Shown in pieces: positions 12,589-43,772 of a stretch of DNA of 64,000 bases. Under the pieces are notes generated by a model that searched no databases, was not told the origin of the DNA, and worked only from the letters and a program-made list of their open reading frames with translations. Every line of letters begins with the position of its first letter. Position 1 is the first letter of the stretch. The translations under genes were made by a program, and so were the position numbers. The stretch spans positions 34,069 through 98,068 of the forward strand of contig JAUXVI010000025.1 in NCBI GenBank assembly GCA_030680575.1. Direction: 5' to 3'. Origin of the DNA: Hylemonella sp. (GTDB lineage Bacteria; Pseudomonadota; Gammaproteobacteria; Burkholderiales; Burkholderiaceae_C).

Positions 12589-13374
12589 ATGACCACCCAA
12601 CCCACACCCACCACGTCCGCCTGGCGCATCGACGGCGATGCCGTCCTGAAGGAAGCCGTGCAACGCATCGGTCCGACCGCGCGACGCGATTTCCTGCGCC
12701 GCTCGCTCACGCTGGGCGGCCTGGCCATGCTCAGTGGTTGTTCGCTGGTCGATGAAACCAGCGTTGAAACGGCACTGAGCAGGATCTCGCGACTGAACGA
12801 CGATGTGCAGGGCTGGCTGTTTGATCCCAACCGGCTGGCACCGACCTACCCCGAGTCGATGATCACGCGCCCGTTTCCCTTCAACGCCTATTACGGCGAA
12901 GACGAGGTCCGGGCCGTCGAGGAAAGCGGCTACCGCCTTGAAGTGACGGGCCTGGTCGCCGACAAGCGCAAGTGGACGCTCGCCGAACTGCGTGCCATGC
13001 CGCAGACCGACCAGGTCACCCGCCACATTTGCGTGGAAGGCTGGAGCGCCATCGGCAAGTGGGGCGGCGTGTCATTTGGCAGCTTTCTGCGCCAGGTGGG
13101 CGCCGACCTCAGCGCCAAGTACGTGGGCTTCAAATGTGCCGACGACTATTTCACCAGAATCGACATGCCCACGGCACTGCATCCGCAAACCGTGCTGGCG
13201 CTGACCTACGACGGCCAGCCCTTGCCGCCCAAGTACGGCTTCCCCATGAAATTGCGCATGCCCACAAAGCTGGGCTACAAAAATCCAAAACACATTCAGG
13301 CGATTTTCGTCACGAATACCTACCCCGGGGGCTACTGGGAAGACCAGGGGTACAACTGGTTCGGAGGCAGCTGA
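12589..13374 (+). CDS. Molybdopterin-dependent oxidoreductase (sulfite oxidase / MsrP-like)
   Basis: This 261-residue protein has the sulfite-oxidase-type molybdopterin fold. The Moco-coordinating cysteine is probably C148 in RHICVEGWSAIGKW. The N-terminal region has a twin-arginine-like stretch (ARRDFLRRSLTLGG) followed by LSGCS, which suggests Tat export and possibly a lipoprotein. It is co-transcribed with the cytochrome b gene and probably controlled by the neighbouring SigF-like factor. The substrate is unknown; repair of oxidised periplasmic proteins is one possibility. Confidence 0.87.
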   Translation: MTTQPTPTTSAWRIDGDAVLKEAVQRIGPTARRDFLRRSLTLGGLAMLSGCSLVDETSVETALSRISRLNDDVQGWLFDPNRLAPTYPESMITRPFPFNAYYGEDEVRAVEESGYRLEVTGLVADKRKWTLAELRAMPQTDQVTRHICVEGWSAIGKWGGVSFGSFLRQVGADLSAKYVGFKCADDYFTRIDMPTALHPQTVLALTYDGQPLPPKYGFPMKLRMPTKLGYKNPKHIQAIFVTNTYPGGYWEDQGYNWFGGS

Positions 13375-38094: not shown

Positions 38095-39813
38095 ATGGCA
38101 ACCATTGGACGACAAGCCTATGCCGAGATGTTCGGCCCCACCGTGGGCGACCGCGTGCGCCTGGCCGACACTGAGTTGATCGTCGAGGTTGAGCAGGACT
38201 ACACACTGCGCGCTGGTGGTTATGGGGAGGAAGTGAAGTTCGGCGGCGGCAAGACCATCCGCGACGGCATGGCGCAGAGCCAGCGAGCCCGCCATGAAGG
38301 CGCCATGGACACGGTACTGACCAACGCCCTCATCCTCGACCACTGGGGCATCGTCAAGGCCGACATCGGTTTGAAAGGCGGGCGCATCGCCGCCATCGGC
38401 AAGGCCGGCAACCCCGACACGCAACCCGGCGTGGACATGGTCATCGGCCCGGGCACCGAGATCATCAGCTGCGAAGGCAACATCGTCACCGCCGGCGGCA
38501 TCGACAGCCACATCCACTTCATCGCGCCACAGCAGATCGAAGAAGCGCTGTGCAGCGGCGTCACCACCATGCTGGGCGGCGGCACCGGGCCGGCCACTGG
38601 CACCTTTGCCACCACCTGCACCCCGGGGCCGTGGAACCTGGAGCGCATGCTGCAGGCGGCCGACGCCTTTCCCATGAACCTGGGTTTTCTCGGCAAGGGC
38701 AATGCCGCGCTGCCAGGCGCGCTGCATGAGCAGATCAACGCCGGTGCGATTGGCCTGAAGCTGCACGAGGACTGGGGCACCACGCCGGCCGCCATCGACA
38801 ACTGCCTGAACGTGGCGGAAGAAACCGACACGCAGGTGGCGATCCACACCGACACGCTCAACGAGAGCGGCTTCGTGGAAGACACGGTGGCCGCCTTCAA
38901 GGGCCGCACCATCCACACCTTCCACACCGAAGGTGCCGGCGGCGGCCACGCGCCCGATATTTTGAAAGTGGTGGGCGAAGCCAACGTGCTGCCCTCCTCC
39001 ACCAACCCGACGCGGCCCTACACCGTCAACACGTTGGACGAGCACGTGGACATGCTGATGGTGTGCCACCACCTCGACCCGGCGATTGCCGAGGACCTGG
39101 CTTTTGCCGAAAGCCGCATCCGCAAGGAAACCATTGCGGCCGAAGATATCCTGCACGACCTGGGCGCCATCAGCATGTTCAGCTCCGACTCGCAGGCCAT
39201 GGGCCGCGTGGGCGAAGTGATCATCCGCACCTGGCAAACCGCGCACAAGATGAAGCAACAGCGCGGCAAGCTGCCGGGTGACTCAGACCGCCACGACAAC
39301 TTCCGCGTCAAACGCTACCTGGCCAAATACACCATCAACCCGGCCATCACCCACGGCATCAGCCACGAGGTGGGCAGCATCGAGATCGGCAAGTGGGCCG
39401 ACCTGGTGGTGTTCAAGCCGGCCTTCTTCGGCATCAAGCCTGCCCTCATCCTCAAGGGCGGTTTCATCGCCATGGCGGCCATGGGCGACCCGAATGCCAG
39501 CATCCCGACGCCGCAGCCGGTGCACTACCGGCCGATGTTCGGTGCCTTTGGCGGCGCCATTGCGCAGACCTCGCTCACCTTCGTCTCGCAAGCCGGCATC
39601 GCCGCCGACATCGGCTCGCGCTTCGGCCTGTCCAAACGGCTGGCGGCGGTGAAGGGCATCCGCGGCATCGGCAAGCGGCACATGATCCACAACGACTACG
39701 CGCCACGCATGGAGGTGGATGCACAAACCTATGTGGTGCGGGCCGACGGCCATCTACTCACGTGCGAGCCGGCAGTGAGCCTGCCCATGACACAACGCTA
39801 CTTCCTGTTCTGA
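38095..39813 (+). CDS. ureC: Urease subunit alpha
   Basis: This 572-residue catalytic subunit carries the nickel ligands: the SHIHF pair (about residues 139 and 141), the carbamylated lysine in GLKLHEDWG, the histidines in [12 protein letters not shown] and [16 protein letters not shown], and the Asp in [14 protein letters not shown]. The flap histidine in MVCHHLDP is present. Nothing suggests loss of activity. Its stop overlaps the ureE start by one base. Confidence 0.97.
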
Positions 39814-41053: not shown

Positions 41054-41707
41054 ATGACCCTGCACCACATCCCGAATCGCACCAAGACCCTGCCGCCGCT
41101 GCGCGTGGGCATCGGCGGCCCGGTCGGCTCCGGCAAGACCACGCTGCTGGAAATGCTGTGCAAGGCCATGCGCGAGCAGTACGACCTGGTGGCCATCACC
41201 AACGACATCTACACCAAGGAAGACCAGCGTCTGTTGACGGTCAGCGGCGCGCTGCCGGCCGAGCGCATCATGGGCGTGGAGACCGGCGGCTGCCCGCACA
41301 CCGCCATCCGCGAAGACGCCTCCATCAACCTGGAAGCCATCGACCGCATGCTGGCCGACTTCCCTGATGCCGACATCGTGTTCATCGAATCCGGCGGCGA
41401 CAACCTGGCTGCCACCTTCAGCCCCGAGCTGAGCGACCTGACGATCTACGTGATTGATGTGGCCGCCGGCGAAAAGATCCCGCGCAAGGGCGGCCCCGGC
41501 ATCACCAAGAGCGACCTCTTCGTCATCAACAAGACCGACCTCGCGCCTTATGTGGGCGCGAACCTGGATGTGATGAAGGCGGACACCGAGCGCATGCGCA
41601 CCAACGCGCAAGGGCTGAAACCGTTCGTGATGACCAACCTCAAGACACTCGCCGGCGTGGACGAGGTGGTGAAGTTCATCGAGACTCGAGGACTGTTGCA
41701 GGGTTGA
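41054..41707 (+). CDS. ureG: Urease accessory GTPase UreG
   Basis: This 217-residue GTPase drives nickel insertion. It has the P-loop [17 protein letters not shown], the metal-binding Cys-Pro-His motif in [15 protein letters not shown], the switch region and the NKTD guanine-specificity motif ([12 protein letters not shown]). It starts 4 bases after ureF and ends the operon. The integron-type cassette begins 80 bases downstream. Confidence 0.97.
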
Positions 41708-41789
41708 GGCCGGGCTACGGGTCTGCACATTGGGTTTCGACGGTCCGCGATAGACCCGATGCGGACAGTCGCTGGCGGTGAAAACGGGC

Positions 41790-41918
41790 GCTCAACGTTC
41801 GAGTTAACCCGCCAGCGGAGGCATGGCGCCTTGGCCCGGTTGGCGAAAATGTACCGCGTACCGCCGACCGGACCAAGGTGCCCTGCCGAAGCAGGTCCGG
41901 TTGAACGAGGGGTTAGGC
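41790..41918 (-). repeat. attC-like integron recombination site (129 bp)
   Basis: Read on the minus strand, GCCTAAC (RYYYAAC) at 41918 overlaps the stop codon of the DUF2971 gene, and GTTGAGC (GTTRRRY) closes the site at 41790. Between them are paired L-type segments (CTCGTTCAACC and GGTTAACTCGAACG) and a long imperfect stem (GGCGCCTTGGCCCGGTTGGCG against CGCCGACCGGACCAAGGTGC). Consensus ends, symmetry and length all fit attC sites. Confidence 0.85.
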
Positions 41919-42813
41919 ATCGGCCGACGGCGCGGGTCCAACGCCAATCTTGCCCCTGCTGAAATGCGCGTACTTGATCGCAACTGCCGGGTTGTACGTT
42001 CTGACCTGTTCTTCGACGGCGAGCCTGTCAGCGAGCTTCATGTTCCAACCAAGGACCAAGCTTGCAACGCAGTTCTTCGGTACTTGCCAAGTAAACAGCT
42101 GCCTTCCAGGCACCGCGTGTGCTTGGCAATCCGACAAAGGGAGCACTACTCGTACTTCCTGCTCGTAGCTCCAATCTTGGAACTTGGTAAAGAAGAGCGA
42201 TCTATGAGACTGCGGATCGAAGGTGACGCCTGACGTCTCGCGTTGATACGTGACTGGCGTCAGCTGGCGAAGAACGCCAGTTTGGTCCCCCAAGAAGACT
42301 TGATCCAAGTTCCTGAACTCGACGGCCAAGCCGCTGGCGTTGGCTGCATAGTGAGCCCACATTGGGAGGGAGTCGAATCGCCGTGACAGACAGAAAAGAC
42401 CAACCTTCGACGACATCTCGTGGGCAGTGTCGGCAAGTAACTGTTCAAGTGTCGATATTGAGTCGTAGAAGGAAGAGTGAATCAGGCGCGAGGCCTCTGC
42501 CTTAGTTGCCGGTACGCGAACTACCTGATACTTTGGGGCAAGAGTCTGCAGTAGATTGCCCTGCTGGCGCAGATGCGACATGTCCTCATCTGAGTAGCCA
42601 GCCGACCGTAGGCGTGCCAAAGAATCGCGCACCGCTTCCGCATCCATGGCGGGAACCAGTTCAGACGGGTCATTCAGTTCCGAGATCGGCGTGAACTTCA
42701 CCACACCGTTCAGGATGAATCGCAGGGCGTCTGGGCTGGCGATGAATTTGTATAGCGCGGTCATTGGCGGGCCTTCCGCTCAAGTTGCTGCGGGGCGGGC
42801 TTCCGATACCTAA
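41796..42813 (-). mobile_element. Lone integron-type gene cassette
   Basis: The cassette runs on the minus strand from the crossover point in G/TTAGGT (42814-42808) through one ORF to the crossover point in G/TTGAGC (41796-41790). It contains one gene and one attC and no promoter that I can see. No intI-like integrase gene is present anywhere in the window. It therefore looks like a single cassette inserted at a secondary site downstream of ureG. Its GC content is lower than that of the flanks. Confidence 0.78.
41913..42764 (-). CDS. DUF2971 domain protein (integron cassette gene)
   Basis: This 283-residue protein begins MTALYKFIASPDALRFILNG, with the family pattern FTPISELNDPSE and later CLSRRFDSLPMWAHYAANASGLAVEF, which identify DUF2971. 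The biochemical role of the family is not established; such genes are often found in accessory and defence-rich regions. The stop codon TAA lies inside the attC-like core site, as usual for cassette genes. Codon use is less GC-biased than in the flanking genes. Confidence 0.82.
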   Translation of the reverse strand: MTALYKFIASPDALRFILNGVVKFTPISELNDPSELVPAMDAEAVRDSLARLRSAGYSDEDMSHLRQQGNLLQTLAPKYQVVRVPATKAEASRLIHSSFYDSISTLEQLLADTAHEMSSKVGLFCLSRRFDSLPMWAHYAANASGLAVEFRNLDQVFLGDQTGVLRQLTPVTYQRETSGVTFDPQSHRSLFFTKFQDWSYEQEVRVVLPLSDCQAHAVPGRQLFTWQVPKNCVASLVLGWNMKLADRLAVEEQVRTYNPAVAIKYAHFSRGKIGVGPAPSADA

Positions 42814-42936
42814 CGTGATTTAGACCGCAAAAGTGCGGAATAACATGACCGGATGTTCATCTTGACGCCTTCCTTGCTGCAAGCTAGGTGCTTGTTTTGT
42901 TCGAAGATTTCACGCCAATATAGCGCAGGCACCGCG

Positions 42937-43128
42937 CTAGCCCCCGGCCAGGTTCTTGAACAAGTAGCGGGCCAGCGCACCCCAGAAGTCTGCGCCGCTG
43001 TGCTCTTGCGCCAGCCGGCTGACATCCACATAGCCCTTGTGCAAGATGACCGCGAAGATCAGCACCAGCCCCAGGATCGCGACGATCTGCAGCGCCGTCT
43101 TGAACAGCGCCTCGCCACGTGCGCTCAC
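42937..43128 (-). CDS. Small membrane protein downstream of rsmD
   Basis: This 63-residue product has one hydrophobic helix (residues 11-28, ALQIVAILGLVLIFAVIL) and a charged C-terminal half. Its start overlaps the rsmD stop as ATGA, so it is the last gene of a coupled run: M16 peptidase, M16 peptidase, rsmD, this gene. I recognise no family. Confidence 0.65.
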   Translation of the reverse strand: MSARGEALFKTALQIVAILGLVLIFAVILHKGYVDVSRLAQEHSGADFWGALARYLFKNLAGG

Positions 43129-43772
43129 GGCGCTACCTGCACACCGCGTTGCAGCAGATGTGCATGCACCGCGCCCGCCTTGAGGTGGCGATACAGCGCC
43201 AGCCGCAGCGGGATGAGTTGCTCTTCCCCCCAGACACTCGGCGCTTCCAGGTAGATGTAGCCACCGGGCGCCACGGCACGCGCAGCGGCCTGCAGGGCGG
43301 CGTCGAACAATGCCGCATCGAACGGTGGATCGAGAAAAATCAGATCGGCACTGGCCGGCGGCAATTGCTTGAGCGCGGCAATGCCATCACCGCGCTGCAC
43401 CTGAACCGCCTCGGCTTTCAGTTGCTCCTTGATCTTCTTCAGCTGGGCAATGAGCGTCGTGTCCTGCTCCACCAGTTGCACCTGCAACGCGCCGCGCGAG
43501 GCGGCCTCGAAGCCAAGCGCGCCGGTGCCGGCAAAGGCGTCCACGCAACGCCAGCCGGTGAGGTCTTGCCCGAGCCAGTTGAACAGCGTCTCACGCACGC
43601 GGTCGGGCGTGGGGCGCAGGCCGGGCTTGTCGGCCACCGGCAGCTTGCTGCGTTTCCACTGGCCGCCGATGATGCGCACCTCGCCTGCGGCTGCGCGTGC
43701 AGCACGCGCCGGCGCAGCGCCGGGTTTCTTGGCGGCGGGCTTGTTGGGCTTGTGTTGGGTTGATGGTTTCAT
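43125..43772 (-). CDS. rsmD: 16S rRNA (guanine(966)-N(2))-methyltransferase RsmD
   Basis: This 215-residue enzyme methylates G966 of 16S rRNA. Motif I (VDAFAGTGALGFEAASRGA) and the catalytic DPPF motif (LIFLDPPFDAALF) are present. The N-terminal 25 residues are a Lys/Ala-rich extension (NKPAAKKPGAAPARAARA) before the usual VRIIGGQWKRSKL start. It overlaps the upstream peptidase gene by 4 bases. Confidence 0.94.
   Translation of the reverse strand: MKPSTQHKPNKPAAKKPGAAPARAARAAAGEVRIIGGQWKRSKLPVADKPGLRPTPDRVRETLFNWLGQDLTGWRCVDAFAGTGALGFEAASRGALQVQLVEQDTTLIAQLKKIKEQLKAEAVQVQRGDGIAALKQLPPASADLIFLDPPFDAALFDAALQAAARAVAPGGYIYLEAPSVWGEEQLIPLRLALYRHLKAGAVHAHLLQRGVQVAP

Follow-up and report, generated by a model that had tools for sequence, protein, structure and literature searches.

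How does a single integron-type gene cassette come to lie between two core genes, rsmD and ureG, in a stretch of DNA that carries no integrase gene? The stretch (the window) comprises 64 kb of a Hylemonella genome, and its minus strand presents, in this order, rsmD, a small ORF of 63 amino acids, a leader, a cassette with a DUF2971 gene, an attC site and a short conserved tail, after which ureG follows in the opposite orientation (Table 1). A sequence-only reading had recognised the cassette, the core urease and rsmD neighbours and the missing intI, and had proposed an insertion at a secondary G/TT site of the chromosome. This arrangement raises two questions. First, are the boundaries of the cassette and its attC genuine? 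Second, what is the sequence into which the cassette was inserted, and where would the integrase have come from?

Table 1. Features of the cassette locus and its flanks, in coordinates of the window
Feature	Position	Strand	Remarks
ureG	41054..41707	+	flanking core gene
3' flank	41712..41795	-	conserved with the congener G025 from the crossover to ureG; a similar motif follows other array ends
attC	41790..41918	-	R'' 41912-41918, L'' 41899-41906, L' 41803-41809, R' 41790-41796
gene cassette	41796..42813	-	from TTAGGT to the G of R'; placed by the attI/attC crossover rules and the breakpoints relative to G025
DUF2971 / PADLOC PDC-S31-like gene	41913..42764	-	283 aa; Pfam and PADLOC matches
leader mini-ORF MNIRSCYSALLRSKSR plus stop	42810..42860	-	stop TAG supplied by the inserted cassette (G/TTAG)
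attI-like leader	42814..42926	-	present in many copies across the genus; ends on the G of the G/TT crossover
hairpin CCGCACTTTTGCGG	42825..42838	-	just 5' of the crossover; kept with other arm sequences in diverged copies
-10-like hexamer TATATT	42918..42923	-	from comparison of leader copies
63-aa small ORF	42937..43128	-	between rsmD and the leader; stop abuts the leader; homologues in congeners
rsmD	43125..43772	-	flanking core gene in the orientation of the cassette; orthologues in 25 of 26 congeners

The cassette is 1018 bp long, holds a single gene and ends in an attC of 129 nt. Its 5' end, G/TTAGGT (42808-42814; the slash marks the crossover), is complementary at six of seven positions to the R'' box of its own attC, GCCTAAC, within which lies the stop codon TAA of the DUF2971 gene. 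The arms L'' (GTT[C]AACC) and L' (GGTTAAC) pair over 7 bp with one extrahelical C, and R' is GTTGAGC, in which everything after the first G comes from the target. When both strands of the 64 kb are scanned strictly, with exact R boxes and arms of at least 7 bp with one extrahelical base required, this site is the sole candidate, and 30 Markov-shuffled windows yield no candidate that passes the scan together with an energy threshold. The minus-strand fold of the site, proposed as a check in the sequence-only reading, gives a z of -3.3. A small, home-made attC covariance model (R2) recovers many attC sites of the genus and misses this one, scoring it at about 10 bits and on a part only, presumably owing to the long inner loop. 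The gene ending inside an RYYYAAC site, the paired arms with a GTTRRRY end and the start at GTTAGGT, all of which had been read from the letters, are therefore borne out. So is the absence of intI from the window, and no IntI above the TIGR02249 cut-off is found in the whole genome, a draft that is 93% complete and in which no complete integron, with intI beside attI, is seen. In form, the locus belongs with the CALINs, or single attC sites lacking an integrase, and it has one attC only.

The protein encoded by the cassette is a divergent member of the DUF2971 family (PF11185, 26.2 bits against a gathering cut-off of 22). The earlier suggestion that it is possibly defence-related is weakly backed by a match to the PADLOC candidate family PDC-S31 (2.9e-26), and we regard a defence role, pointed to by this candidate-family profile, as a lead; a search of the protein against NCBIfam gave nothing. 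Its homologues are all distant: identity reaches about 28% at best across 300 genomes of the order and 31-35% in two viral contigs, and further distant relatives occur on plasmids. They thus do not reveal where the cassette came from. An AlphaFold2 model based on an alignment of three sequences is poor (pLDDT 39.8). Elsewhere in the window, positions 38256-38545 match the Rfam family 5_ureB_sRNA (RF02514, 105.5 bits), antisense to a urease gene.

The answer to the second question begins with the DNA immediately upstream of the cassette. When the same genome is searched, the 126 bases preceding the insertion point turn up a second time, and there too a GTTAG start comes immediately after them. 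The leader of the window contains a ribosome-binding site (RBS), a mini-ORF of 16 codons and a small hairpin, ends in ATCACG/TT, and scores 106.6 bits over 42808-42895 with a profile (R3) of such leaders. This profile has 89 matches in 19 of the 26 genomes of the genus, at 1-13 copies per genome, among which the weakest (33-45 bits) may include chance ones; 13 copies are counted in G015, nine in the single-contig genome G018 and seven in the genome of the window. The genus is taken here as the Hylemonella/Curvibacter group of the Comamonadaceae, a group of freshwater bacteria represented, by contig names, by Hylemonella and several Curvibacter records. A first small sample of relatives gave leader copies in many genomes of the genus and none in other genera, and among 251 genomes of the family, only five genomes outside the genus, from four genera, have a match. 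The leader was not found in plasmids or phages, and its exact pattern is absent from viral contigs.

Common to the copies are the hexamer TATATT, an RBS, a short MNIRPCYSALLRSISR-type ORF with its stop, a hairpin CCGCA-cttt-TGCGG and the end ATCACG/TT, and in most of them the stop of the mini-ORF comes from the TTAG with which the inserted cassette begins. A -35-like TTGTTA, present in other copies, is absent from the leader of the window, in which no consensus promoter is called. The hairpins fold better than shuffled sequences (z < -1) in 55 of 61 leaders, and pairing is kept where the arms differ (CCGCA/TGCGG, GACAG/CTGTC; L190-L204, diverged leaders).

Cassettes follow these leaders in a regular manner. 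Among the listed attC-model matches at the fetched leader loci, 51 of 51 lie downstream and on the strand of the leader, a pattern that is partly by design, since the 14 seeds of the R2 model were drawn from such loci. Independent of this seeding is a comparison, at 31 loci, of each cassette start with the R'' box of its first attC: the true pairings give a match of 183 and shuffled pairings 144.8 ± 4.6 (0 of 10000). The model recognises an attC at 31 of the 61 leader loci, and some leaders are degenerate, with non-GTT junctions or broken mini-ORFs; part of the set may therefore be relics.

The identity of the leader is indicated by G015, which is, with G023, one of the two congeners of 26 that possess an intact IntI. 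In G015, the intact intI (456 bits), at which a LexA-type box was read by eye, is followed by a leader homologue and then by an array whose first three attC sites are recognised, and the leader of the window is homologous to this intI-proximal attI (60.6 bits). The same genome thus has one intact IntI and 13 leader copies. It could be argued that the leader is an unrelated repeat of the MITE or REP type that merely happens to precede these genes, as it is multicopy and contains a small palindrome. Such a repeat, however, would not be expected to show a G/TTRRRY cassette start at the same base, matching the attC, at many loci, nor homology to an attI adjacent to intI, nor positions common to several species, and we judge this explanation very improbable. 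Two further observations concern the distribution of cassettes and integrases. One cassette gene, 82% identical between the two places, occupies the first position behind a leader without intI in the genome of the window (L189, +1..+589) and is cassette 3 in the intI-bearing array of G015 (L082). G265, from a different genus, has an intact IntI at a distance of about 2 Mb from a leader match (L227), and the attI beside this IntI is not recognised by the leader profile.

Is the insertion then an off-target event? Clustering by upstream DNA gives 14 groups of leader positions shared between species, the largest with eight loci, and these include sites after psd and after rsmD; some links are weak and based on short stretches, notably those of L076, L185 and L187. 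At shared positions the flanks are mostly 80-95% identical on one or both sides, and the 700 bases that follow the leader usually show no relationship. Averaged over 62 pairs from the same position, identity is 80% in the final 40 bases of the leader and 27%, the level of chance, in the 60 bases past the crossover. The interval between rsmD and ureG is itself such a position: where a clean empty site had been expected in a relative, G025 carries three other cassettes, together with a leader of this family. Similarity between the window and G025 ends at ATCACG and resumes at ACG/TTGAGC, which fixes both ends of the insertion at base resolution, and no truly empty site was seen. Judged by these comparisons, the leader positions are old and the cassettes are changing, and the crossover breakpoints lend indirect support to the leader as a candidate attI recombination site.

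Insertion at attG sites, reportedly described by Loot et al. in 2024, likewise places cassettes away from the integron platform, and with no intI nearby this described process might be invoked for a single cassette at a chance chromosomal G/TT. The target in the window, however, is not a degenerate genomic site; it is a conserved attI homologue, present in seven copies in this genome and repeated through the genus, and in G025 the orthologous site is likewise occupied by a leader of this family, combined with other cassettes. The secondary site of the sequence-only reading is accordingly replaced by the crossover of an attI-like leader, and an attG event is extremely improbable here.

The ends of the arrays have features of their own. 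A motif GTTGAGxGxCCGCTTTC...GACxGTCCGCxxxGGGTCG is shared by the array ends of L070, L089, L099 and the window (41712-41795); it could represent a terminal cassette that has decayed, or else a 3' boundary that the copies of the element have in common. A repeated element, of which about 110-1490 bp are shared at 74-95% identity, lies near array ends in several species, at sites that are not orthologous: it follows the arrays at L191, L193, L197, L097, L101, L068, L090 and L091 and occurs in L082 at about 12900-13080; it is perhaps an insertion element or an intron.

A more serious alternative is that each site is the relic of a complete integron, in which intI, attI and cassettes were duplicated together, intI was later deleted, and cassettes changed only as long as a local intI was present. 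One leader in G009 adjoins an intI remnant with an internal deletion and one in G272 an intI fragment; at the position of the G015 intI, G017 keeps the leader and cassettes without the integrase gene; and several leaders start in sequence that resembles the 5' end of intI. Nevertheless, among about 60 leaders very few show an intI remnant upstream. Moreover, at one site G009 and G018 share a near-identical cassette block, with about six differences over the 1474 bases that follow the crossover, compared with about 6.5% divergence before it, and neither assembly has an intact IntI. Near identity within diverged flanks suggests acquisition, and hence insertion without a local integrase, although the attC at the right end of the block is eroded, so that homologous exchange is also possible. 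On this balance we think it rather unlikely, though far from negligible, that the sites are such relics.

As far as sequence comparison reaches, the cassette, the attI homology, the many copies at shared positions and the replacement of cassettes at fixed sites are established. We consider it probable that attI × attC recombination placed the DUF2971 cassette in a copy of the genus's own attI that lacks an integrase. In this mechanism, an attI copy, one of the seven in the genome, would have become fixed between rsmD and ureG before the split from a congener; the circular cassette would fold the bottom strand of its attC, and IntI would join it to the resident copy at G/TT. The integrase presumably worked in trans, unless the lineage has lost it since. 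As the TTAG of the cassette closes the mini-ORF, ribosomes on the leader could pass on to the cassette gene by translational coupling, and the DUF2971 gene is probably transcribed by read-through from rsmD, given that the leader of the window has lost its -35 element. Whether the genus as a whole has a distributed integron, in which a single integrase, either a resident of some lineages or a visitor, serves many fixed attI sites, is a proposal for which we find belief and doubt evenly balanced.

How does this arrangement compare with known systems? Integrons typically have one attI, located beside intI (PMC9024848). Like the sedentary chromosomal integrons of Vibrio and Xanthomonas, the present loci have an attI homologue, a G/TT crossover, attC cassettes mostly of unknown function and, in G015, a LexA-type box at intI; unlike them, they comprise many attI copies dispersed along the chromosome, with arrays that are short and no intI close by. 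According to published work, CALINs arise through off-target insertion, through loss of intI or through rearrangement (PMC8618304), and the locus resembles a CALIN in its attC-bearing cassette without a nearby integrase, whereas its cassette sits in an identifiable attI copy. ORF-11 of attI1 in class 1 integrons is a short ORF with its own RBS that spans the crossover and takes its stop TAG from the core site of the cassette (PMC8876359). The leader mini-ORF is built in the same way, with an RBS, a crossover within it and a stop TAG given by the cassette; it differs in its sequence type and in its presence in most copies of a dispersed set, and coupling through it may be envisaged.

Partial attI copies outside the platform are also known from delta-attI-type cassettes, which occur in arrays of mobile integrons and are functional in assays (PMC12901181). 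The leaders resemble them as attI-like copies outside the platform and differ from them in holding fixed chromosomal positions common to different species. Cassettes of this type might, by analogy, have served as a dispersal route for the leaders: attI copies might have spread when whole integrons were duplicated and later lost their intI, or through capture by attI-ended cassettes. In the open-licence literature, no description of several or orphan attI sites, or of integrons in Hylemonella or Curvibacter, was found.

A genus whose genomes have as many as 13 attI copies at conserved positions, of which nearly all lack a local integrase and hold changing cassettes, departs from the scheme of one attI and one integrase. 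Dispersed copies would be one more origin of orphan cassettes (CALINs), overlooked by current software; IntegronFinder 2.0 does not detect attI outside class 1 and by default requires at least two attC sites (PMC9024848). They would also suggest another escape from the bottleneck of first-position expression. If the distributed integron proves true, a genome of this genus would hold many first-position, expressed slots in parallel, as against one long and mostly silent array.
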